Source of the DNA: Lineus longissimus | Taxonomy: Eukaryota > Nemertea > Pilidiophora > Heteronemertea > Lineidae | DNA: 64,000 nucleotides | Assembly (NCBI RefSeq): GCF_910592395.1 | Contig: NC_088310.1 | Span: forward strand, 12,533,501 to 12,597,500 | Reading direction: 5' to 3' | Part shown: positions 18,381 to 60,500 of the stretch, piece after piece | Numbering within the stretch: position 1 is the stretch's first letter | How the letters are laid out: the number at the start of each line of letters is the position of its first letter | Notes under the pieces: generated by a model | What the model saw: the letters and a program-made list of their open reading frames with translations, nothing else | Told to the model about the DNA's origin: nothing | The model's database searches: none | Program-made: the position numbers and the translations under genes

Positions 18381-19636
18381 TCACTGTCTCATATCAGGTT
18401 CAACATCAAACCGTATGTCCTCATCATCATCTGACAATTCCTCCGCGAGCAACAGATCTTCAGCAGGCTGCGCATCCCCTTAACAACTGGGCTGCCTGAA
18501 AGGCACGATCTGGCGCTTCAGGTGATACATCAGCCCAAGCTTCACTCACAATGTTAATCACGTCTGTTAATGTAATCCGTGGGCACTGACCATCAGCAGC
18601 TGTGTGCTGCCATTTCCATAGCTTCCATTTGCTCCTTACGATGCATTTAAATCCATGGATAACCGTTAAATCCAAAGGTTGTACCAAGGATGTACATCGG
18701 GCTGGTATGAAGTCGACAACAACACCTGACTCAACTAATGGAAGGTTAAAGTCCTCCGCCTGATGTGGACGAAACTGGTCGTGAAGCAGCAAAGTTCTTC
18801 CGGGCTCAGCATCCTCAAGTTGTGGCAAGAAAATCTCGTGAAGCCAATGTTGCATTGTTTCCGCATTTTGCCATCCACTACGAGATGACGTTACCCTTAC
18901 GTTGTCGGGGATGTTGTCCAATGCTCTTATTTCTTTGATGAAACCAGGCTGTCTAAATATGATCTGCGCAGGAGCTTCACGCCCATTCGTCCCGATCGCA
19001 AGAGTGACGGTACAACCCAGCTTATGATTACCACGACTGGTTTTGATATCCACATTTGGGGTTCCTTGAGTTTCGGCTGTATAGAGCGGGCGAAAGTCCA
19101 ACTGCATGAATGTTTCATTCATATTCCAAATTGTTTGAATTTCTAAAGCGTGAACAGTGTCTCTCACTCTGTCACGGAAGTTCAGTACCCGTTCATTGGC
19201 GTCAGCGGGAAGTACCGTAGAATTTGTCGTCCGGCGACGGAAAACAATGCGTTTCCTCTGCATAAACCTGGTGGTCCATCCATCGCTGGCCCGAAACAAC
19301 GAACGCTGAGGTCGATTTTGGTATAGTTCTTGTCTCTCCTGTAGCGGCAAGTCGTCCACCCAGTCTTGAAAGATTCGAAGGGCCGCATCGCGCAAGTCAC
19401 TCCTTGAGACCGGCAGTGCAATTCTCCTCTGATCAATAAGTGACTGATGGACACTTTCTTCCAATTCCGGCCAACACCCGTTGTGATCTTCTCTGATTCG
19501 TCGAGAATGGAAATTTCTTTCCATCTGTTCCATTAAATTGTCAATATCGTTTATCCATCGTCTGAAGGTGGTGACAGGTATGTGGTACCGTCTCGCGTAT
19601 TCTGCAGGGTTAAGGAGTCGGCCTTGTAGAATTAAA
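18381..19636 (-). pseudogene. pogo/Tigger-like (Tc1/mariner, CENP-B-type) transposase
   Basis: Minus strand, open from 19636. It begins with a psq-like helix-turn-helix (NPAEYARRYHIPVTTFRRW), then a CENP-B/Tc5-type region ending ASDGWTTRFMQRKRI, then a DDE domain with IWNMNETF, LLLHDQFRPHQ and TSLVQPLD. The family first catalytic Asp (normally in a MDET-type motif) is Asn here, so the protein should be catalytically dead. A one-base shift in the C4 run at 18476-18479 moves the acidic tail (EELSDDDEDIRFD) into another frame, ending at 18381. No TIRs were found. A domesticated relative is possible but the frameshift argues for decay. Confidence 0.8.
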
Positions 19637-19712
19637 CCCTAGCACTCCAAGACATGTCGGACCTTGGCCTCCACTGTATAACTATGGTGCCTCCTTGGTA
19701 GGCCTCTTGGAG

Positions 19713-20157
19713 GAGACAAGACCACTAATGAATATTCATAGGTTGGAGGGTGAGGCCTATCAATTAGACGAGTGCATGTTTTTAACTCTCAAGTACATAT
19801 TTGGAGAGGTATTGAAAAAATATTTGTTGTGGCAAGTCTACAGATATAAAGAAATTATTTGATGAAAAAATTAATTTCGAATTTTGCTAATTGGGTAATA
19901 GCCAATAGTTTTGAGTTTTTTCTGCCAGTTGGCTGAAAAGAGTGGAAATATCAAAGTCTGTCTAATTTGTCGATTATCAAAAAATTTCCGTAGTCAATCA
20001 CCAGTTTATTTTTCACCATTTACTTGCCCGACTGTCCGGAATAACATAATCTAAATTTCAGATTCACAACCCCACGCATTATTTGATGCGTCGCGGTCAA
20101 ACATTGACAATTTAACTGCTAAAAAAGGCTTAAAAAATCAATTGAGGTCTTGCCTCC
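19713..20157. repeat. 445-bp dispersed repeat, copy 1
   Basis: Over 95 percent identical by eye to 33245-33691 in the same orientation. It starts GAGACAAGAC and ends GTCTTGCCTC, giving a 10-bp imperfect TIR. There is no coding sequence. It could be a MITE or a solo LTR (the termini approximate TG...CA). It is AT-rich. Confidence 0.75.
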
Positions 20158-20838
20158 ATTTACACTACATTTTGGGTCAATTTAGTAAAAAATTTGAATG
20201 TGCTCAAATCACTCTAATTCATTTAGAATATTGTATTGCTGATGATTTAAGGTCAAAACCAGCTAAAATAATGAGAAAAAAACTTAATTTGACCCAAATA
20301 TGAGTCAACCTAGCCCCGGTCTAAGTTCGGTTTCATTTTCCTTTGGGTGCGTTTTTATTAGCTCAGCTGACAAAGTCAGCGGAGCTAGTAGAATAGCTGT
20401 TCAAATGGTGTCCGTCCTGCAATCCATCCATCCATCCATCCATCTAGGGACCCATCTGTGGACTAAATGGACATTTCTGACCGGAAAGGCCGAGCCACTT
20501 CGTTGACGGTGCTAAATTAGGAGTTGCCCAAGGTGAACTCAGAAACGAAAAATCAGCGTGATCCAACCTGTATTAAGAGAATGAGGTCATTTCGCATTCA
20601 GATTTCTTTCCCTTTTTACCTCGGTCCACAGAGCAAATATTGTTTTCAAATGTGGCTGAATATTTTTAAATATTTTTTCATTTTTTACTTTTAATGGAAT
20701 TAATATAGTTTTCACCGCCAGTTGGCGCTGCAGGCACATTGACTGAATTTTGGCGATTTCAAATTTGGCGGTGGCTCAACTTTTTGCAAGCAGTGCCGCT
20801 GATTGGCCGATCGATAGAAGAGATGCCACCATTTCAAA

Positions 20839-23800
20839 ATGGCGGTAGTCGCTGCTTCAATGAAGGTGAGTGAAATTTCTCGTGTTCAATCGGTTGATAC
20901 TCTTTTAATCAACATGACCATGTACCTGAAGTTTGTTTAGGTACTGAAAAGAGTCTATTATATAATTCAGATTTATCAATAGTTTTTTATAGTATTGCGG
21001 AAATTTTGTGCGCAAATTAGCGAAAGTTGGTGCTCGTCTCGTGTCATTTTAGAGCGAGAAATTTGTTTCCGTCGATCTCTACCAGTGAAAAATCGCTTGC
21101 ATAGCTTCGAATTTTTGTGAAAATAAGTATCTGAACTTGGTTTCAAATAGTCTAGAGAGTTACCTTTGTGGTGATACATGGTATGTGATAAATATTTGTG
21201 GAATTTGTGAAATTCGGGTTTTCAAATGATGCAAGCGATCTCGCGTGAATTTTGCAAGTCCTGATAGTGATATGTCGACCGGGCACAGGCCCTTGAGTAT
21301 TTATAATAGGGGTAGAAGGCGTAAAATAGGGGTATAAGCCCAGGAACTAGGCTAGCATAGAGAAAAATTAAAGGTATGAAAGCGCGGCAAAGTTTTGAAA
21401 CGGTAGACACCTCCACTTCGTGCACAAAATACGGCCCGTAAGAGCCGAGGAAAACACAATTTTTTGCTTACTACGCCATCTACACACCTTCAATCATCAC
21501 CAGAATGCATGTTTATAATCCTACTTTGAATATCAAAGGCCCACGCGGCATCGTTTGTTTGCGAATTTTCCGGTCTGATGATCGCTAACGGCCGTCCGCC
21601 ATCCCCTCTCCGTAGCAACGTAATAGCAACGGAAATCACTGTTTTGAAGTAGAGGAAACACTGCGCTCTGATTGGCTAAAAGTTGGGCGCATAATTCCTG
21701 ATAAATCCTTCAGCGTGGCGTTTTTGTGGAGAAATAAATACAAAACGTACCTTTTTGCACGACTCGAACTGATATATATCCGTCTGATTGTCGATCATTC
21801 GTCATAAAAGTTATTTACACCATCAGAAAAATGTGTTTCCTTCAGTCGTCGCCGATCACGTGATATGCTGGTTTTCCCCATGACGTCACATTAAAAAAAA
21901 ACGTAGCGGTAGTTTCGAATTCGTTCCAGAGCTGTCAAACACAAAAACGTAAATTTTTTCGTTCAATTACAGATTTTTCAGTCTGAAATGGCTAATGCTA
22001 CAGCGGACACAAGTGTTTGCAGTTGGTAGGTACTATTTACATTCACTGTTATCCCGAAATGGAATTTAAAATTATGATTTTATGGGAATAAATGTCACCC
22101 CAACTGGTCAAGCTAATGTTTACTATACTACATGATGTACATCCACGTATTCAATGAGGCAAATTTGTATCAATCACTCTAGTAGCATTGTTGATTGTAC
22201 ATTGTTTATGATGTATTGCCTCCTGGCAATTGCATCATCATAATCACAAAAAAGCATGGTAACCTACTGTTTTGATGTCTTCTTCCCCCTACCCTCTCCT
22301 TTCTGCATTTTTTTTAAACATAAGCCACAAAACCATTTTGAATTTTTCCTCGTTAGAAAAGGTTCATCACCGGCAATGTCTTCACATCCGTAATGATACC
22401 AAAGCCCGCACTGGTCGCATCCAATGCTTTCTTCAGCTGGTACTTTGGGTTCCTTTATACATATTTAACTACAAGCCCCACACAAGTAGTCACCTGATTC
22501 ATCTTGGGCCACAGGTGAAACACTAGCAGCAGGCCTACTTGAGCCTCTGGACCCAGTGATGCCCGGAGGGCCTGCTTTTTTTTCCGCGGCATCTCTTCTT
22601 TCATGAGGACCAACATTTCCTTAAACATAATCCTGGTGAAATGATACGAAATGCTGTGGAAGAGGTCCTCAACGGTGACCAGAAATAGGTCCTCCATGTC
22701 CTCATCTGATTCAGCCTGTAACGTAAACAAACTGAACCATTTCTGTATCAGATCCTCATTGTTGGTAACACTGTTCCTAGCAATCACAAGCAACTCTTCT
22801 CCAAATAAGTGATACCTCTCGACCGACAAATGTTTTCCCAACAATATAAAAAGGTCAATGAAAAAGAGAAATGTATCATCTGAGATGTTGATTAGTCCTC
22901 GATTAGCACCTTGCCTCCAAGCAGTCTCCTCAAGACTATCAAGAAAGTCACTGCAGCTCAAGATATCCTGTTCTTTGACCTTTAGCTGGGAAAGAATGAT
23001 TCGCTGATTGTAGGCAACTCTCCTTTTAGTGGATTTCCTGATGCACCGCTGCACACTTTGTGACAACTTATACAGACATTTTGCTACACAGGCACCCCCT
23101 ATGTAACGGATCTTTGATTGCATGGCATGATCAATACCCTCGATATTTTCCGGCATTCGGACCACATGAATGTCTCCTGACTGTTTCTCAATCACTTTCT
23201 GGGCATCTTTATGAATGATCTTTGCTATCACATGGCGTGCAATCCTCGTGGCACATTTGAACTCAAGTGAGGAGCATTCTGTCTTTGCAAACAGAAGTTC
23301 CAACTTTCTCCGGAAATCTTTTGATGTCAACAACTCATACTCCCCACCTGTACCAAAAACTTTGTACCAACCTTTTGAGGTGGTTGGCTTCTCCCTCTCC
23401 AAGATAACACTGTAATGCGTAAATATCCATCCAAGAAATTGCATCAGTTGGTTGTTACGTTCTTGCGTAAGGTAATATATTTTCTCACGGAGATTTTGCT
23501 GCTCCGGTTCCTCCCCTACTGGTCTCACACTCTCCATAATTTCATTTACGTTGAAGGGGAAGATCCTCAGGTCTTCATCATTAATGTCAGGTATCTGCTG
23601 TGGCTCCTCAGCAAACATCCCAGGCAAGCTAGGCTCAGTCCCCATGAATGCAGTTCCCTCTGGCTCTGCAACCTCACCATCTGTGGTCTTCAGAAATGCA
23701 CCTGGAAGAAAATTATCATCAGATTAGCCTATACTTCAGATTTAATTATTTCAAATCAGTTTGTTCACTGCTCCCTTGCTATACTAAACTCTTTGAGGAC

Positions 23801-26800
23801 CATGGTAAAAAACTGTGGTACCGAGTACCGTACCCAATAAAAATGTAGTGTATGTGTACATTCCTGTAAATAAATGTACAGGACGGTACTGTACTCACCA
23901 TCTTCCTCTTCTACAACCTCCTGGCAGCAAGTCATTCCTTCATCGGGAAGATGTCTCGTCTCTCTTCATAGAACAAGTACACAGCTGCTGAATGCCTCAT
24001 TTTTGCACCACCCAGGTCAAAGTTGATTATTTAAAGGCCAGCTGAATGTGTTGCGCGACCGACTGCCACCCCCATCTGGCCAGGCTGAAAGAAATTGTGG
24101 CAGTCAACCTTTAGGTTATGAATTGTCTTTCCTTGAGCCCTGTGAACAGTTATCGCATATGCCAGCTTCATTGGAAACTGTTCCCTTATTGCACCAACTT
24201 TTCCTGTCCTGTCAACACCCTCAAACCTATGGCGCTCAACTGTGGTTCGTCTCCCGTCAAAATCAACAGTAATTTCATCATCTCCGCCAAATGCTACCAC
24301 TGTCCCTGTCAGACCATTGACCAACTTTTCACTCACAGTACGAATGATAATGATGGGACAACCAACTTTCAGTTGCAGAACCTTTGGTGCAGGGCATTTG
24401 AGCAGTAATGTCTTTTTCCCAGAGTCACGGCAGGATAGTTCTTGATTTCTCCTTGTTGGGTGTCCAGTTCCTCTGCATTATAGAATTCGCAATCTAGGTT
24501 TGTGCTGCATATCCTTGTAAAAGTAATGCCACTCTCATCCTGAATAGGTCTCTGTAGATACTTTAAGTAACTGACAGTTTCATCTGATGGGCTTCCCTCG
24601 CACAGTTCATGTATAGCTTGAACAAGTTCTGCTTCATTTTGTCTCTTCACTTCCGTCAAATTAACATGATGAGGGAAACACAATTTAAAAGTAGCCGACA
24701 GAAATGAAAATTCACCAAAATCACCATAATGGGGGGCAGCAACAGGTGGTAGTTGTTTGAAGTCTCCACTAGCAATCACCTGTAGTCCACCAAAAACTCT
24801 GTTGTCCTTTCTCACTTTCCTACACACATATTCCGCTTGATTCCATGTTCTTCGTGAAATCATTGAAATTTCATCGATCACCAACACATCAGTCACTCTT
24901 ATCCTTTCTGCACAGCCTCTCCATTTGTCGTCATGGATGATCAGCTTTACTAAGTCCTCATTGCTGTGGCGTCCATCTTGTAGCCCAGCCCAGTGGTGCA
25001 GCGTTGTCACACCGACAAATTGCATACTTGATATGCCCGTAGAGGATGTCATGGCAACTTTCCTCTGGTTGTTCTTCAGATCTAGTGATATTCTTCTGCA
25101 ATTAGAAGATACAAAATACTTAGTTGATTTTACAGTCATAGTCATAATGTCAATAGAATGATGTAATTCTTTATTTCTTTTGCAGGTTGATGTACCACAT
25201 AAAGCAAGCAAATCCAGCTGACCGACTACATGTGAGGACAGCCTATAACGAATATTGCAAGGACAGTGGCGACCAAATATCAGCAACTCTGCAATGCTTC
25301 GGGGAAGTCATCAGAAATATTTATCCGAAAACTACACGGAACCACAAGGAACATTACTATGGACTACAGTTTATTCCATCAGCTGAAGTGAATTTGCCCC
25401 GGCCTGTGTCATTTCCAAGTTACTGTCATGTTTTACAAGGTGATGGTGGTGTTGGGAACAGCATCATTGAAATTAAGGTGCCCACTACTTATGTATGTGA
25501 TGAAAAATGTGTTTTCGTTCATGTGGCTTTCAAATCATTCACTAACATTAACAATCTCAGTTTACGCATACTAGACAAGGACATAGATGTAGAGAAACTT
25601 GGAATCAGCTCAAAATTTGTCATGAATCAATCAAATATAGATGGTCTTCTGAACGGCCTTAGTGCACTAAAACTGTGCGAAGGACTGCAGTGGGATCAAT
25701 CATATTCTAAAGGAGAGACTGTACTAGAACATATTTGGGCACAGTCACCAAATTTGAATGAAAAGACAAAAAGGCTTCATGGGAAGAAATGTATTATAAC
25801 CTTGTTCTTTCACAGGCCTGGAAATTGTTGCCATCCTTGCCAGCGTGTCAACAAATGGATTAAAGAGAAGGCTACTGCGAAGGACAAGGTCAGTAGCAAT
25901 GATAAAAACACTCCTCCAGTTCCAGATTCAGACACTATAAATGACAGGGGACACAATTAAGCTCACAGAACAAAGTCATGATGAGTTTTTTGAACTGTTA
26001 CATAAGGCAATGCCTAATGCACCATCAGAGCTAAAAACCCTCCTAGAAGCTCAAGTAAGGAACTCCAGCAATGACAAGGACCCAAGACACAGACAGTGGG
26101 ATCCCAAAGTAATAAACATTTGCTTGTCTCTTTGGTCCCGATCACCCCAGGCTTATGAAGACATGAAGGCTTCTGATGTACTCATCTTACCAACAGGTAG
26201 ATTACTGGCATATTACAAAAACACTGTGCGACAGAGACCAGGCTTCAACAAAGACAACCTGAAGTGGATGGCAGCTGAAGCTAAAAGAAGGGACATTCCA
26301 TCACATGGACTAATTGCAATAGATGAGATGATCTATTGCAATAGATGAGATGAAAATACAAGATGACTTACAAATTGTTCGTAAAGGAGACTCATGGGAT
26401 ATAATTGGCGCCTGTGATTTGAGTGAATTATGTCAGGACATAGACACTTTGCGCAAGAAGAAGAAGCAATGCACCATGGCTACCGAGGTGTTACAAATGA
26501 TATTTCATGGATTGACTGGCTTTCGGTGGCCAGTAGCTTATTTTGCATCAAGCACAGCTACCGCTTATGAGATATATAACATATTTTAGGATGCTGTTGA
26601 CCTCCTTGGTCAATATGGCTTTGTAGTGGATTACTGTTCTGTGGATGGAGCTGCAACTAATAGGGCATTCATTCGGATGCACTTTTCTGGTGACCCAATC
26701 AAAGTTAATTTTCGAACCCAGGACATCTATGACTTCAATCATCACATTGTGTTCATTCAGGATATAAAACATACCTTGAAAAAGGTACGCAATGGCATTT

Positions 26801-29800
26801 CATCCAGGAGTCTCGAATTGAAAGGGAAGCCCATCATCTGGGAACACTGGGAATCGGCTTACAACTACAACAAGAGACTGGGATTGAGGTTGCATAAAAA
26901 GTTAACAAGAGAGCACATCCACTTGACAACAACCTTAAAAATGAGGAATCAGTTGGCACTAGATGTATTGGACAAAGAAATGCTCAAGCTAATGAAGGCC
27001 TATGCACAGACACTTGAATCAGATGAAAGGGACAAATTGGGTAGTTCCATCCTCCTTTTGGAGAAGACCAGTTTGTTGGTTGACATTTTCTGTGATTGTA
27101 ACAGGACAATGGATTTCAATGATTCACGTGTGAGACAGATATTGGAGGTGCAGGACTTTTTTCGTGCATGGGAGCAGGAGGAGAAGAGGAAGGAGAAGCT
27201 GCTTACAGAGCAAACAAGGGAGGACCTCCATTATTATTATTATTTATTATTTATTAAATCCAAATAAACAAAATTACATATTGAGACAATTGCCAGGGCT
27301 TAGGCTGAAAGCATTAATAGCCCTGGTTACAATGGTATACAAAGAACAAGTTGAATCAAGATAAGGTAACATACTTTGAATGGAAAGAAAGGGATGCAAG
27401 TAAAGGTAAAGTAACACAAATAGTTATAGTTTGTACAAAGGTAGTGATTGATGAGGGGTTCCATTGATCTGGCACTAGTTACCAGAAAAGACGATAATAT
27501 TACTGAGAAAAGTGGCTGTTTTTTCTACAACAAGCCTGTTTGAAGTAAGGTCCAATGAAAATTGACCATTAAGAAGAAAATGGAGCCACTCATCAACACG
27601 AAGATTGAAAAACCTAACAGAAGTAAGGTGTGGCAGCAAACCAGGATCATTCAAGAAATTGTTACGTAAATCATTTAATAAAGGGCAATTAAAGAGAAGG
27701 TGTTTAGTAGATTGGGAGTGAGCCCCGCAATCACAAGATGGACTTAAAACGTTGGTAAAATTGTGGGAATAAAAGTGACACCGAAAAACTAAGTCACACC
27801 TTGTCCTATTGAGTGAAAGTTCATTTTTACGAGTAAGAGCCAATTTTGTAGAAGTAAGAAGGTTATGTTTACCTCTCAGAAAAATTCGGATATTGTATTT
27901 AAATGAGTTTCTTGAGAAGCAGTTTTTTATATTGACAGGCACAGACTCCCAATCTCTAATTACACATGGCACAGTTGACTTGCTAAATCTTGCAGATGAT
28001 CTAGGGGGAAGTACATAGTCTCGCTGGGTCCTTAAACGGCCAGGAGGCGCCCGATTACGATAAATGTCAAAGATTTCATTGACATAACATGGTACCAAAT
28101 TGTGTTGTACCTCATACATAAGCACCAATCTTTTTTCCCTGCGCCGAGCAGAAAGTGTCATCCAATCCAAACATTTTAAAACCTTTTGGGTGTTAGTCCC
28201 ATGAATACAACCACTGACTATAATGGCACCCCTATAGTGGATTTTATCTAATTGAGAAAGTAGACCCTGATTGGTAAAGTCAAATATAATAGATCCATAT
28301 TCAAGATGAGGTAATATAAATGATAGATACATGCGTTCAAGATGCCTTGATTGAACCGTAAACTTCAAAGCATTCACATTACCAGCAATCCCCAACTTTA
28401 TTATGCCGCTGCTAAATGCAGGCGCTACGATCGAGTTTGACACGTGACCCAATTTAGCCAATCAGAGCGTTCATCAATAATAAAATATATTTTTAGTACA
28501 AGAAATCAATGCCTTGTGTCAGTTTTATGCCTTCATTGTGGGTTCACAATTTTGAATGTACAGTGTTCCAGCTCATCAAAAGAACAGGATTTTGTCTAGA
28601 ATCACGGTTTTCCGAGTTTCTCCTTGTCAACACTGTCAGGAACCCCCCCCCCCCCCCATCCTATCTACCTAGCCAACACCCAGACAGAGGTTACCAAATG
28701 ACAGAGCTGAGAGAGCCCAAACATCGGAGGAATCCATGCAACAGCAAAAGCTTTGGCAAATATGCTGAAGAGAAGGATGCAATATAATATTTCGGGCTTG
28801 GTCACCCGCCTACCCCCCCCCCCCCCCGACATGACCCTTCCCAGCCCTAGTGTCCTTAATTGAACCATCCAAAGATAGGGATCTTAGGCCATAAAGTGGA
28901 CAAATAAAGCAAGAAGTTATCAAAGGGCAGTCATTCTCATATCTTCAAAGATCACTTGAGGTCCAGCTTTTCATGTATGTTGATGTTTGGACATATATTC
29001 TCTCCTCAAATCCACTTGGGACGCCAATTTGGACCCCCCTGTGGACATGGAAAAATTTTCAATTTTCCCAATGGCATGTGTTTCAGTATACTCAGTATGA
29101 TGCTGCCTTCTGCAGGAGCTATCGGCAAACTAAATTTGCAAACTCTATGTGATTCAAAAAGGCCACAGAAGTCGGCCAATTTTCATGTTTTCTTAGAATT
29201 TACATTAGGAAAAATTGCAATTCACGTGGTATTTTCAACCCATAGGTGGACATGGAAAAATTTTCACCAATCAACTCAAAATTTGGCCTGCAAATGCCTT
29301 GATAGTCATAGAATCACATACGCTATCGGCAACTAGGCTTTAGTTACACAGAAAACCGTGAGATGTCTCTCACCTCGATCTGCTATAGAAAACGTATGCT
29401 TGGCCCTGGAAGGGAGTTTGGCGCATGCGCAGTTAAAAGGTTGGGAATTGCTGGTAATGAGTGGATTTAACATGTTGTTACATGTTGTTAGGACCTCCAT
29501 TCATCTCTCCTTGGATTTGTTGCTCTGGTCCAGCACATAACTATGCTTGGTTTTGCCATAACCCCTGGATTTATTAATTCAGATATCATTGAGAACTTTT
29601 TTGCCAGCAGAGAGGAATATGCAACGGAAACAACACGAATCCCACTGTGGCACAATTTGGGCCAGGTGTAAATGCGATTGTGCTGGGAAGTGCTACCATA
29701 TCCAAGAAAGGCAACGCTGGAGCACCAGCCAAACGAGCAAATCCTGCCCACAAGTTGTTTCCCCTGAACCCAAGGAAAAAGATCCGAGTATAGACTTCTA

Positions 29801-32513
29801 ACTCCATAGTTCATGGACTGGGTAAGTTGAGATGAATTATTTCTTGCATCTACATAGTAGGACCATGCTGCACCACCACAAGACTAAGACTAAAGGATGG
29901 AGGTATTATTAAGAATGGGCTAAGAGAGAGAACTTCTGGATAGGGGGTCCTAACAACAGCAGCTGTGATCTTATTATTCACCTGATTAAACTTAATTTTG
30001 ACTGATTTTGTAGTGTGCATTTGATATTACTTTTCAAAGCAATTAATGTCAATGATTTAATTCCCTGCTTCCCAGCCACGAGGTCCAACTAGATCACTGA
30101 TCATGCAGGGATGGAGAGACAGAATTCACTAAATGATTCCTGGTCTTGTACAATGCATAGTATATGTACACTGCTATGCTAAAGAGATACTGCAACTCTT
30201 ATTTTCTTAAGACAATGCATGCATCCACTGCCCTGGGACTGGCCTGGACATTGGTAGGCCTGCTGGCCCTGGCGCTGGATGTTGAAATTTTGATGATTAA
30301 ATTCACCCTAAAAATACCTCAAAAGATGCGATTTTCCAGTTCCACAACGTCCAGTTATTAGCACATTGTGCCCTTGGAGGGCATAGCCATGAGCTTTCTC
30401 TTGCAAAGTGTTCATTTTATACTCGATTCTACGCTTGAAACAATGACTCGAAATGACAGAAAATACACACGTGTAATACGTTCCTAGAAATGTAAACAAA
30501 CAAACCTCGTTTTTATGGGCTTCTCTATAACATAAAATACATGGTGGCTGTCTCTTCGTCGAAATGGGGTGCGAGGTTGACATCGATGGCAGATAAGCCA
30601 ATCAGCGCGCGTTATTCCATTCACAGCGGGGCAACCTTGTTCATTGTTGCCAAGGCCGTCTTCCACGTCATCGGAGAGGGGATGGCGGACGGCCGTTAGC
30701 GATCATCAGACCGGAAAATTCGCAAACAAACGATGCCGCGTGGGCCTTTGATATTCAAAGTAGGATTATAAACATGCATTCTGGTGATGATTGAAGGTGT
30801 GTAGATGGCGTAGTAAGCAAAAAATTGTGTTTTCCTCGGCTCTTACGGGCCGTATTTTGTGCGCGAAGTGGAGGTGTCTACCGCTTCAAAACTTCGCCGT
30901 GCTTTCATACCTTTAATTTTTCTCTATGCTAGCCTAGTTCCTGGGCTTATACCCCTATTTTACGCCTTCTACCCCTATTATAAATACTCAAGGTGTCAAA
31001 AATCACTCGCCTAAATTCAATTCAAAGATCAAAAATAATATCTGAACTTAGTTTCAAATAGCCTACGCAATTATCATTTCGGTGATATATAATGCATGCA
31101 TGTAATAATTGATTAATCTGCCTAAAACGCGCAATTAAAACGGCGAAAGATCTTGATAAACACTCTGGTGGCGGTCGCACTAAATAACGACCGGTAGGGC
31201 CCGGAGTCTGGCGGCGAAAAAAAGGTAGCGCCCGGAGGTTGAATCCGGATTTTTATGCACTTTTAACTGTATATATATGTTGTTAAGATGTATTTCTAAC
31301 AGTTCTGTAACTTTGATGACCAAGCTTGCACCCAAAGTTGGTGAAATTGATTCCTTTTTATGGACTGCGCTAGCGACCGGAGAATTCGCCGTCAGTCATT
31401 TTGGCTACGGTCCCCGAGTAAAAAAAAGTCACGGAGTTGTTGTGGTTGGCAATTTTGCAACAAATCTCGCCATTTACGTTTGTTTTCTCCCTGTCTGGTC
31501 ATTGGCCGTGACAACAATTATTCTGAAAGTCACATTATGACATCGTAGTATGAATTCCACTGCAGTTTCGTTACGCAGCAATGCTCATGTTTTTAATTTG
31601 CAATCCTGTACTGTCTGTACACTGCGCTGTGCATGGCTGTGCTGTAGGTTGTAAAAAAGACAAAAACGATAGCCTAGCCCTAGGCTATAGGATAGGCTTA
31701 CAGTATAACTCAACAGGCCCTCATGATTCATTTGATGGACACCTTATTTGATAGTACCTCATCATTAAGTCCACTAGATCCTGTTCTGTCACATGTCGTA
31801 GACGATAGACAATTTTCAAAATGTAGTACACCACTCGCTCATCTTTAAGCCCAGCTCTCGGCTCACATCATGTGGGCACGGTTGGTTGTTTAGTGTTATG
31901 GTTCAGTCTGTGAGACTAATTTAAAGAGGTTACACTTTTATTTTGAATTGGAAAACAGCCCACAGGACTGACTTTTCACTGAGTAATAAGTGTGCCCTTC
32001 GAAGGTTAAGTCTCTTTTTGGATTTGCTTCCATAGATGTCTTGTTCAGGATATCATCTGACAAATGCCTGATCAAGCACAGACTGCATCCGGTGGTGTAC
32101 ATTTCCCCGTCTATGTGATGTCACCCTTTTTTATTCAGTCAGTGTTAATTTCTCTTCTCTTTTTACAGATTAACTGTTGTTGGTTATTGCTGTGGTTGTG
32201 GTTGCTGTGGTTGTTGGCACATTTCAAGTCCAGGAAAGCACTTGCTGTTCCCACATTCAGAGTAAGGTGTGCTTACTCGTTTTACTGCTTTCCATTCCCG
32301 GAGAGCATTATCAAATATCTGCCACAAGGCAACAAATATATGCCGCAAGGCGCTTCAAATATCTGCCGAAAGGCATCAAATATCTGCCACACCAATAAAG
32401 TTCATTTTGTTAACCAACTCTTTATTTTATTTTCTTCACATACAAAAAAGACCATCCCAGACATTTGGCTGCATCCACTTCATCAATGTATAGACAACAG
32501 TCGGTTCATTTGA
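20839..32513 (+). CDS. Putative two-exon gene carried by Helentron-like copy 4
   Basis: Exon 1 runs from ATG at 20839 to 20865, followed by GTGAGT. Exon 2 starts after CTTTTTACAG at 32169 and stays open in phase 0 to about 32513. Exon 2 opens with a very hydrophobic run (CCWLLLWLWLLWLLAHF) that could be a membrane helix, followed by a basic KSRK. An AATAAA lies at 32393-32398. The intron would hold the whole P-type transposon. The layout mirrors the two-exon unit in copy 1. No homology is recognised and this could be coincidence. Confidence 0.25.
21291..21612 (+). repeat. Left TIR of the P-type transposon
   Basis: Inverted copy of 30672-30993, about 97 percent identical by eye. It contains CCCACGCGGCATCGTTTGTT and GGACGGCCGTTAGC-type blocks near its inner end. 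Confidence 0.9.
27475..28461 (-). pseudogene. C-terminal part of non-LTR retrotransposon ORF2 (5' truncated)
   Basis: The frame encodes the thumb/post-RT segment typical of Jockey/CR1/I-like ORF2: LSFILPHLEYGSIIFD, LSARRREKRLVLMYEV and a terminal Cys/His cluster CDCGAHSQSTKHLLFNCP. The RT catalytic core is absent because of 5' truncation. The first about 15 residues probably come from unrelated sequence. It ends with TAA near 27475, followed by a short 3' UTR and the (AAT)n tail at 27233. Confidence 0.8.
28462..29489. other. Unassigned sequence inside the retroelement insertion
   Basis: Two poly(C) tracts (28637-28652 and 28816-28830) and a repeated phrase GGACATGGAAAAATTTTCA at about 29042 and 29247 are visible. 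No coding sequence is supported. Confidence 0.4.
30672..30993 (-). repeat. Right TIR of the P-type transposon
   Basis: Inverted copy of 21291-21612, ending ...AAATACTCAAGG at 30993. Confidence 0.9.
31100..32160. other. Non-coding interior of Helentron-like copy 4
   Basis: No credible coding region. It would be intronic to the putative two-exon unit. GC-rich patches occur at 31130-31260. Confidence 0.35.
32313..32395 (+). repeat. Four imperfect ~20-bp tandem units
   Basis: Units of the form CAAATATCTGCC..AAGGC occur at about 32315, 32335, 32357 and 32377 inside the last exon-like segment of Helentron-like copy 4. Confidence 0.7.
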
Positions 32514-32614
32514 CCATTCACCTCACAAAATACACTGTAATAATTATGTACCTTGAGTCAATGTGCATGTTATTAGTTCCACCTACGCTGCATGAAGACA
32601 AGGACTCCACTCTT

Positions 32615-32708
32615 TGACGTCACCACACAACTCCTTGACGTCATCACACACCCCACTACTGCAACAGCAATAGAAATGACTTTACGTCATAATAGCAGGG
32701 TGACGTCA
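32615..32708. promoter_or_regulatory. Cluster of CRE-like sites
   Basis: TGACGTCA at 32615-32622, 32636-32643 and 32701-32708, and TTACGTCA at 32682-32689, all within 94 bp. These are CREB/ATF-type motifs near the 3' end of Helentron-like copy 4. Function unknown. Confidence 0.45.
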
Positions 32709-33244
32709 ACTCAGTACTTCAGCATGCACTGATATAGCAAGAAGGTCTTTCGCACCAGCACTTCTTGCGTGCTAGACGTTACAGCTTCACGTTGCCTCAT
32801 AATAACGGTACCAACACACACTTGGCCCTTGCCTTCAGCTATCCATTTCAGCTGAGTGCCAGGCACTTGGACCTCTTGTTACAAGTCTTGTTGTGTTGCC
32901 ATTCATTTTGTAGTTTCTTTGAAACTACTTAGGCCTTGATTCTGAAAGTTTTGCCCTAAGCAGCAAAGATATTCCTAAATCACATCCTAAACTTTCAGCT
33001 CCATAGCTTGCTTATTCTGGCCAGGGCTGGTCTTTGAATTTGGTGCTGTTGGCTGCAAAATCATGACTTTTTGTCCCTTTTGTCCTCTTTCGTCGCTTTT
33101 GGCACAGTGTACCACTCTTGGAAATGTCTCTCATTTCTCCCAAAATGTCCAGATATGTCTTTCCTTTGTTGGAGAGTTGTGGGATGTCATGTATATTGGT
33201 TTGAAAAAATTCTCAAAATGTTAACCCCTGAAATGTACCTTCAT

Positions 33245-57500: not shown

Positions 57501-60500
57501 TCTCACAATCTGACACAGAGTACTCTCCAGTAATGGTTGGATATCAATCTGCTGGGATTCAGTGAAATTTTGAGCCATCATTGAGTTTCGTAGGTGCTAT
57601 AGTTTGGATACTATGAGCGTTTTCGGAAATAACACACCTCCCCAAACACTGAAACTTAGGGTCCCAATTAGAAACATGGATCTATAGCTTTATCAGTGAG
57701 AAGACAAACATAACTTTAAAAAAAAGGCAAAACAGCTACCGTAAGTAAGTATCAGATCATAGCGTATCCTGATCATGTCATAGTCAAGCCAAAGTTTTCC
57801 CTGCTCCAGATGTCGCACCATACATCACATCATTCATGACATCACCCATGACATCTATCAATTTTTCTCGACGTCATACAGTTTTGGGCGTGCAGTCCCA
57901 GATAGTATAATCGTGTTGTAGGCGCTAGTATCTGATACAATACTTACTTATGGGCTGTATCTCCAAACTTGATACTCACATGTAGTTTCAGGATCCATCA
58001 CTATCTCTTCCAGGGACTTCCCAGCATAACTTGCGACTCCCCTTTCCATAGCCAGCAGCAGACGGCTCACCTTGGTCATTTGCAGCGTGTCGTCAGGCAG
58101 GCGGTAATACTCCCGGTGAACACGAATGTCGTGGCCCATGTAATTCGCCAGCATGTCTAGTTCATTATCCTTTAAATTCAAGATCTGGCTCATCGTTGCA
58201 ATGTGCTTTCGAAGGCGGGTTGACGTTAACGCCTCTGGCTGACTTGCACCACAAGCTTTTGAAATATTGCGCAGGCAGTCGCTCCCCCTCATTGGTGTTT
58301 TGGCAGACATGTGTGCCCTGGCAAATACATAGGGATTCTCTGCAGCGACTCCAACATCTTTGCGTTTCGAAATGAGCAATTCGATCTGTCTTTTCATGTT
58401 TTCTGTTAGCAGAATCGGAACACCTCGTCCCTTCTTTCCCCTAGTTTCGATTCGTAAGAAAGATGCTGACAGTTTCTTCTCGAGAGGGGACAAAGCTTCG
58501 TTAACATCACTGCTGCCGATGGATGCAGCGGCACCCTTCGCTTGGCAATATGTGGCAAGTGTTAACTTGCTAGCCTCCCCAGACCGTCTCCTATTAAACA
58601 TGATGATCTGTGCCAGTGTCGTTTTACAAAGTTCAGACCAAACTTCTACGTTGCAGTTTTCTTTGGATTGTATCCGAGCTACATTCTCTTCTGCTATCTG
58701 CGACATGAACACATGCATCTTCTTGACATCATTCCCAAGGGGTAGCAGCTTTGGTTTGTTGAACTTCTCTTCTCGTACTGTTCTAAGGGCGGTCCTAGAA
58801 ACACATTCGTTCCACTTCAGTTCAGAAAGGCGGAGGAAATCAACAGCCATTGTCACCTTGCCACCATCACCATTCATCAGTCCTGCACATCTGTTTAAGC
58901 TGTGACCAATTTTAAGAGCTAAGTTTGGCTTCACATAGGTACCCATCTCCTTGTTGAACCCAGCAACAGCTTGCACAGCAGTGACGACTTCAGTAAATCT
59001 AACTGGACTGATAGCACTTTCCAAGGGGCTTTTGAACTCTTTCACAAATCTACCTAACTGGCGTAGCTTCTTACGAATATAATCATTCTGGTTTGCATCA
59101 TGCCCGACTTTGTTGTACAACCTTGTTCCCATCTTCAGAATCAGTGGATCACCTTTTACCACAAGTTTGATGTCATCATTTTTCATAGCTCCAACTATCT
59201 CCCTCAATTCCACCGAAAGGTTTGCAGCATGGAAGCTCTTGCCTGGACTCTTCCACCTTTGGCATTGTCTGGGCGCTTGGTACAGGTCTTCTGATGACGC
59301 CACAGATCTTTCCTCAGGAAAAATCCAAGGCAGTGTTCGCAGGCAAGATAGTCAGAACACTGAGCGGCATTCTTCTGTTTCTCGGAGGGGCGCTTGTAGA
59401 CGATCAGTTCGCCGTCACCAGACTTCAGACATTGAACATTGTGGTTGTAGTCACCTAATTTTCTAAGTCCATCCAGCAGATGATTCTTTTCTTTTCCTGC
59501 AGACAAGGCCATGATTCTCGCCACCTCAATTTCAGACAGATGAACATCATAAAAGTGTCTCGGAAGTTTCGAAAACGGTTTCTCACAAAACACACAAAAA
59601 TGGGACCTGTCCCATACACGTTTGTTGTCGTCATTGTACTTTGCAGATGGGACAAATACCTGTGATTCTTTTTTCTCTGAATCAGTCTTTTCCTCACAGT
59701 CAGCCTCTTTTTGTCTGCGTTGACAAACACGTTTTCCATGGGGTTCTCCAATAGATTCAGAATGTTTCTGGACATTTACTTGAACACGATCACTCCGTAG
59801 AGATCCATTCTGATCAGGGACTGATAGTTTCGCTTGCTCCACAACACTACCAGAGACAAGAAACTTTGAAAGGTCTACAATAACAGTAGAGGCATCAGAA
59901 TCAGACTCGGAATCAGGGATCACATCAGGCCCTGGCACATATTCAGGATCAGCATCTGTGTCGTCAACATCTGTACTATCGAAACTTGCATCCATTACAT
60001 CACCTGATGAAATAGTGATATCGGACTGCGTTACTCCAACATCCCGTACTTTTTGAGGGGTGACAACAGCGACCTTGGGCTTCTTACTTGTTACTACCCG
60101 TTGATCGGCAAACACAGCTGCAATGAAAACACTATGTAATTGAGTGTATTGCGCATAAAAAAGTTAATAACTATGATGCTACAATGGCTTAGTTAAGCCG
60201 GCTATGGCACAATTGCGCGCACCATACTGAACTCTTCATCATGAGTGACACCTGACATCATTTTACTGGAATAAGACGTTACTCCAACAGGGCTTCATCA
60301 TAGTGAAGTGTGCACCTGCAAACAGGCTTCAGTACCAGGTAGTAAAATTGCTAAGGAAATATCATTAATTATATGCTGTATGCTGCATGAAATGTAGCAA
60401 ATTATATAAAAACACACTAACAAAACTTTCTACCACAGCATTTAGATAGAAAGTTCTTCTTTTGAGCCACAGCATAACTCACGGGTATCCACAGCATCTG

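Follow-up and report, generated by a model that had tools for sequence, protein, structure and literature searches.

Closest described systems

No gene other than the transposase is known in the P element and in Galileo. Helitrons, which are not known to have terminal inverted repeats (TIRs) or target site duplications (TSDs), carry a Rep/HUH nuclease joined with a helicase. RAG-like transposons combine a RAG1-type transposase with the RAG2 kelch protein, which has a PHD finger; they are not known to carry a helicase, and their genes lie side by side, not interlocked.

The P element has a THAP domain and 8-bp TSDs, and the break left by its excision is closed by host repair pathways in which the Bloom helicase takes part (PMC7776569). 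Galileo combines a THAP domain with long TIRs and mostly 7-bp TSDs, and the D(2)H and DDE motifs are named for the P superfamily in the same source (PMC4168063). KolobokH has a RecQ helicase, as has Kolobok-1_CCri, where it is encoded on the complementary strand (PMC9587614), so that DDE transposons with a helicase have precedent.

The element described here lies in a stretch of 64,000 nucleotides (the window) from the nemertean Lineus longissimus (contig NC_088310.1, positions 12,533,501 to 12,597,500 of the forward strand). With a probability of about 85%, it is a broken two-gene DNA transposon of the P superfamily, whose RFX/RNase H transposase gene and accessory PIF1-PHD helicase gene are reciprocally nested in each other's first introns. 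The window element and its relatives (the window clade) have, like the P element and Galileo/1360, a P-type RNase H transposase (PF21787) with D(2)H and D-x-x-E regions. They share long TIRs and 7-bp TSDs with Galileo (PMC4168063), but where the transposases of the P element and Galileo start with THAP (PMC7776569, PMC4168063), that of family 2 (see below) has an RFX domain and that of the window an RFX-like region. A further difference from both is the addition of a second, interlocked helicase gene.

Other transposons share single traits with the window clade. KolobokH and Kolobok-1_CCri are DDD/E transposons carrying a helicase, but this is RecQ and not PIF1, they belong to another superfamily with TTAA TSDs, and the available text of their description mentions no reciprocal intron nesting (PMC9587614); the TSDs of the window clade are 7 bp long and differ in sequence. 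Helitrons also have a PIF1-type helicase, and that of Helraiser matches the helicase of a related family (family 2, see below) with an E-value of 4.5e-20. The window clade differs from them by its separate DDE transposase, TIRs and 7-bp TSDs, and no Rep domain was present among the Pfam matches listed, which for the family 2 helicase were 25 of 46 families. RAG-like transposons (ProtoRAG) have two convergent genes per transposon (PMC7204232). IS3EU elements with alpha-kinase and TET/JBP genes have their accessory gene opposite to the transposase, as here, but they belong to another superfamily with other accessory enzymes and no interlock is described in the text available (PMC12730594). No P-superfamily element with a PIF1 helicase, an RFX domain or an interlock appeared among the titles and abstracts listed in literature searches, and an earlier description may exist.

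Organization of the window element

The features of the element are the following:

21284..21612, plus strand: left TIR; terminus CACAGG at 21284 (the 322 nt of the sequence-only reading start at 21291)
21988..22025, plus strand: predicted transposase exon 1, MANATADTSVCSW, last codon TG/G split by the intron; 376 nt inside the inner edge of the TIR
22026..25185, plus strand: transposase intron 1, enclosing helicase exons 2 and 3 (opposite strand)
22264..23701, minus strand: helicase exon 3, middle domain without Pfam match, then PHD finger; broken
23899..25095, minus strand: helicase exon 2, PIF1 ATPase core, 2B domain and C-terminal helicase motifs; broken
25096..30317, minus strand: helicase intron 1, enclosing transposase exon 2 (opposite strand)
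25186..27232, plus strand: transposase exon 2, first part, RFX-like region, then P-type RNase H region; broken
27221..29501, no strand assigned: later insertion in transposase exon 2, retrotransposon-like DNA between 12-bp TSDs AGGACCTCCATT (27221-27232 and 29490-29501)
29492..29793, plus strand: transposase exon 2, last part, SDIIENFF, D-x-x-E region, ending KKIRV*; one frameshift
30318..30415, minus strand: predicted helicase exon 1, start codon and Walker A GRCGTGKS; 257 nt inside the inner edge of the right TIR
30672..30993, minus strand: right TIR, outermost bases not preserved; 318/322 nt identical to the left TIR

Near-identical TIRs of 322 bp had been noted from the sequence alone, and the two arms (21291-21612 and 30672-30993) indeed align over 322 nt without gaps and with 4 mismatches. 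The family terminus is CACAGGCCCTTGAG, as defined from other genomic copies; because these copies share it, the left end of the window element is placed at 21284. The matching last bases are absent at the right end, and a search for a TSD at the window copy found none.

All splice junctions that the same reading had proposed, with phases in agreement, have GT/AG borders. Those of transposase intron 1 (22025/GT, AG/25186) are in phase 2 and give the translation MANATADTSVCSW followed by LMYHI. The helicase borders are 30318/GT, AG/25095, 23899/GT and AG/23701; its intron 1 is also in phase 2 and the translation across it reads GKSHLLR followed by RISLDL. Splice sites, phase and conservation are the grounds on which the first exon of each gene is predicted. 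Both genes are read inwards, from start codons 130-380 nt inside the TIRs.

The assignment of the two genes to a P-type transposase and a PIF1-PHD helicase agrees with their Pfam matches. The window segment 26332-26586 matches TNP-like_RNaseH_N (PF21787; E = 2.7e-6, 28.2 bits, cutoff 24.6), a domain matched by the family 2 transposase with 68 bits (E = 1.4e-18). The D(2)H and D-x-x-E regions, identified by eye in the alignment, read QDIKH and SDIIE in the window and QDIKH and SDVVE in family 2. The N-terminus of the family 2 transposase matches RFX (PF02257; 28.4 bits, cutoff 27, E = 2.6e-6), and the window transposase is similar to this counterpart with a score of its own that lies below cutoff (15.4 bits, cutoff 27, E = 0.03). 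No THAP domain was matched by Pfam at E ≤ 1 in either transposase. The GTP-binding domain PF21788 was likewise unmatched in both; it was matched at a distant P-type locus of the same genome. The N-terminal region of the window transposase, used as a genome query, matched only the window itself, and a sequence search did not reach a solved P-element structure. A piece of the family 2 transposase found no relatives in viral contigs, in a single-sequence query that detects close relatives only.

In the helicase of the window, PIF1 (PF05970, E = 2e-19) and Pif1_2B (PF21530, E = 3.9e-8) are matched, covering an ATPase core with Walker A/B, the 2B domain and the C-terminal motifs. The family 2 helicase matches PIF1 in Pfam with E = 9.9e-29 and solved Pif1 structures with E = 2e-52, aligning to a Pif1 structure at residues 4-298 and 309-414. 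A PHD finger (PF00628, E = 1.3e-7) is found at 22267-22464; the corresponding region of family 2 has weak matches to the fingers of KMT2D and Pygopus. The middle domain (22458-23699, minus strand) is kept in family 2 and has no Pfam match. Its single-sequence fold prediction (one run, mean pLDDT 37.7) was set aside as evidence, and a single-sequence query of viral contigs with the window domain, sensitive to close relatives only, found none.

The impression that each gene had only a few lesions has to be revised, as the window copy is more damaged than that and both genes are broken. The transposase, which ends at 29793, has frameshifts at about 25.95, 26.34 and 29.6 kb, a stop codon at 26587-26589, and is split by the 2.27-kb insertion. 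In the helicase, the reading frame is shifted at about 24.4 and 22.5 kb, and stop codons lie at about 24.03 kb and, in frame, where the PHD finger begins.

ORFs resembling those of other mobile elements were noted by eye in the window. A minus-strand ORF in the insertion (27475-28461) has the look of a reverse-transcriptase C-terminus, with no Pfam match above cutoff. Outside the element, an ORF at 18460-19638 (minus strand) resembles a pogo/Tigger-type DDE transposase, and ORFs at 57948-60163 (minus strand) resemble a Crypton-type tyrosine recombinase.

Relatives in the genome and recurrence of the interlock

Other copies were searched for in 391 Mb of the genome (30 contigs; the window copy is on C3). 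The TIR of the window gave 51 matches, from which 12 other loci were fetched. Five of them are short elements of about 0.1-1.1 kb with both ends and perfect 7-bp TSDs (ATCAAAC, GTCAAGG, GTGTGAT, ACTGAAT, CTATATG), one has both ends without a TSD, and at six a single end was recognised by the search pattern. Copies with these TIRs and no helicase exons, which the sequence-only reading had named as evidence against itself, are therefore present; those five that have both ends and a TSD lack the length for either gene.

Genome queries with the middle region of the helicase and with the transposase core hit 7 and 11 places, respectively. The transposase loci of the window clade are eight: the window, C12, C20, C16, two on C17, C2 and C6. 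A helicase exon with the start and Walker A lies antisense past the 3′ end of the transposase at all eight. The helicase body is at least partially present at seven, with only a part at C20; none was found at C12 in the fetched stretch or in genome searches, one of which scored 150 of 167 candidates. Transposase exon 1 is present at five loci (the window, C16, both on C17, C2), has been lost with the element end at C6 and was not located at C20 or C12. All four landmarks of the interlock are found at five of the eight loci, so the reciprocal nesting that had been proposed for the window holds and extends beyond it. These correspond to four independent insertions, since the second C17 copy duplicates the first, with like flanks. 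Recurrence of the four-part arrangement at independent loci argues that the layout did not arise by chance.

The loci on C16, C17, C2 and C6 form family 2. Relative to the window, 291 of 724 aligned positions (40%) are identical in the transposase and 296 of 839 (35%) in the helicase, counts that include a small number of residues read out of frame where the broken pieces of the window genes end. The layout of family 2 is that of the window and intron 1 of each gene is at the identical place and phase, although more introns are present in family 2 than in the window copy. Transposase intron 1 splits a Trp codon (TG/G) at one site in the window and in family 2 (MDVISDACGW in the latter), and the donor of helicase intron 1 follows an identical phase-2 codon in the window, C12, C20 and family 2. 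The C20 locus represents a further family, whose transposase core is 51% identical to that of the window; there, an apparent other transposon with 192-bp inverted repeats separates the transposase from the helicase body. On the predicted exons, two sequence families have the complete reciprocal interlock, and a third has the helicase half of it.

The elements of family 2 are 9.7 kb long at C16 and C17 and longer at C2, which carries an insert. Their TIRs are 369-374 bp (measured in C16 and in the first C17 copy), and, over aligned blocks, copies share 97.6-99.1% identity with C16. Three insertions are flanked by 7-bp TSDs (GTGACAG at C16, CATAGAG at C17, GTCTCTT at C2). As shown by TIRs, 7-bp TSDs and near-identical copies, the relatives of the window element are mobile. 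The C16 copy, at C16:8908073-8917757, keeps both genes open, with a transposase of 781 aa in 5 exons and a helicase of 904 aa in 7 exons. Its predicted first exons are 8908677-8908705 for the transposase, joined to 8913552, and 8917258-8917152 for the helicase, joined to 8913289. It is the only one of five copies with both genes open; at least one gene is broken in the other four. The transposase is open in two of the five (C16 and the second C17 copy) and the helicase in two (C16, C6). The sequence-only reading had the arrangement functional until recently, a view well served by family 2 with its near-identical copies, three insertions with TSDs and open C16 genes; the window copy is poorer evidence for it. 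TIRs with 7- or 8-bp TSDs are a trait of the P superfamily, and 7-bp TSDs are seen here at five short copies of the window family and three family 2 insertions, with none at the window copy; the clade departs from a P element in the strict sense by the lack of a THAP match and by a transposase that is not the sole gene (helicase exon 1 at all eight loci).

The two C17 copies (C17:2402393-2412063 and C17:2497666-2507302) are situated inside one segmental duplication. The second is bordered left and right by one and the same flank sequence in inverted order, pointing to either recombination between TIRs or a fault in the assembly.

Three distant P-type transposase loci were also found (C6:7551395, C8:13281503, C13:10717570). 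The two that were scanned with Pfam match the P-type RNase H domain, and one of the three has an open frame of 828 aa. No PIF1 match was found within 100 kb of any of them (150 of 167 candidates scored; very diverged helicases may escape).

Selection on the two genes

Between the window and C12, the transposase has a dN/dS of 0.096 over 204 codons. The helicase, compared between the window and C13, gives pN 0.187 and pS 0.758 over 698 codons, with saturated synonymous sites and with some overlapping alignment blocks counted twice in the sums; the single part with measurable dS has a ratio of 0.117. Synonymous sites are saturated between the window and C20 and between the window and family 2. 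Within family 2 there are few changes (dS 0.002-0.016) and the ratios range from 0.4 to 4.5, so that no selection is shown inside this family. Judged from these sequence comparisons, both genes are under purifying selection. Selection on each gene, a check suggested by the sequence-only reading, is seen in the comparisons with C12 (transposase) and C13 (helicase), and not within family 2.

Two other accounts were discarded in the analysis. Chance ORFs were ruled out by recurrence, intron phase and dN/dS, and a helicase acquired as a separate insertion by the recurrence of the layout in diverged families.

Alternative explanations and a possible mechanism

The genome contains at least 63 PIF1-like matches, and at C13 a decayed helicase body is found with no transposase detected in 20 kb. 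Both observations would suit a passenger helicase, either a PIF1 gene of host or Helitron origin or an independent element, brought by chance into a P-element intron. This is improbable. The same layout and intron phase are common to families that are only 35-40% identical, which makes the association of helicase and transposase old, and both genes bear the marks of purifying selection. The closest relatives of the window helicase, among the matches listed, are those of C13, C20 and family 2, and no inverted repeat of at least 20 nt other than the TIRs was found in positions 20000-33000 of the window. The sequence-only reading had itself allowed for a helicase with termini of its own; instead, exon 1 is found at eight of eight loci and the body at the same place in both of the diverged families. 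It is more improbable still that the nesting results from a gene-model error, with the real starts elsewhere and the small first exons being chance ORFs. Transposase exon 1 is short, with 10-13 residues, and the first exons are predictions from sequence. The Walker A motif that a PIF1 ATPase requires is, however, encoded in helicase exon 1 at each of the eight loci, and in two families an identical split Trp codon closes transposase exon 1, where the RFX-matching region starts.

In the probable two-gene transposon, each gene starts just inside one TIR and is spliced over a long first intron that holds the body of the other. The TIRs probably contain both promoters, because they are nearly identical, the start codons follow at 130-380 nt and the genes are read inwards. 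The transposase would bind the TIRs via its RFX domain and cut and paste the element with a 7-bp stagger, while the helicase would come in once excision has occurred or during strand transfer. We propose that it helps with donor-site repair synthesis, because displacement-loop synthesis is driven by PIF1 helicases in other systems. In the simplest form, the helicase would drive this synthesis over the donor gap with the sister chromatid as template, which would copy the element back into place, and the PHD finger would tether the helicase to histone tails. We infer the copying or repair role, as well as a coupled expression of the two genes.

The main rival to the repair role is a choice of target by the PHD finger. 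The helicase would then serve regulation or targeting, its PHD finger and DNA remodelling selecting target chromatin or assembling the transpososome, in the way that RAG2 or AAA+ regulators act for other transposases. In RAG-like transposons, too, two convergent genes are paired (PMC7204232), and a PHD finger ends the helicase in both families, as seen by Pfam in the window, by alignment and by the weak KMT2D and Pygopus matches. The presence of PIF1 motifs in both families and selection on the core favour a true unwinding role, and we consider the regulatory explanation unlikely, with perhaps one chance in its favour for several against.

If either end of the element were lost, both genes would suffer, one through its exon 1 and the other, further in, through its body. 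A clean internal deletion confined to one body would do no harm to the second gene, and linkage alone may therefore not explain why the interlock is retained. As read from the map, a single inversion in an ordinary convergent pair could not have produced the interlock: the two bodies have traded places, yet each keeps its orientation. A tentative and more ambitious proposal, to which we give clearly less than even odds, partly on account of such clean deletions, is that the clade represents an undescribed P-superfamily lineage in which the PIF1-PHD helicase is obligatory and the nesting is itself selected, through inward-directed promoters in duplicated TIRs, antisense-coupled outputs and the cost to both genes of losing an end.

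Significance

The gene pair consists of two genes, each inside intron 1 of the other, kept over deeply diverged families. The RFX region in place of THAP would show that a P-type core can swap its DNA-binding domain. If a P-type lineage brings its own PIF1 helicase, copy-back after excision becomes testable from the side of the element.
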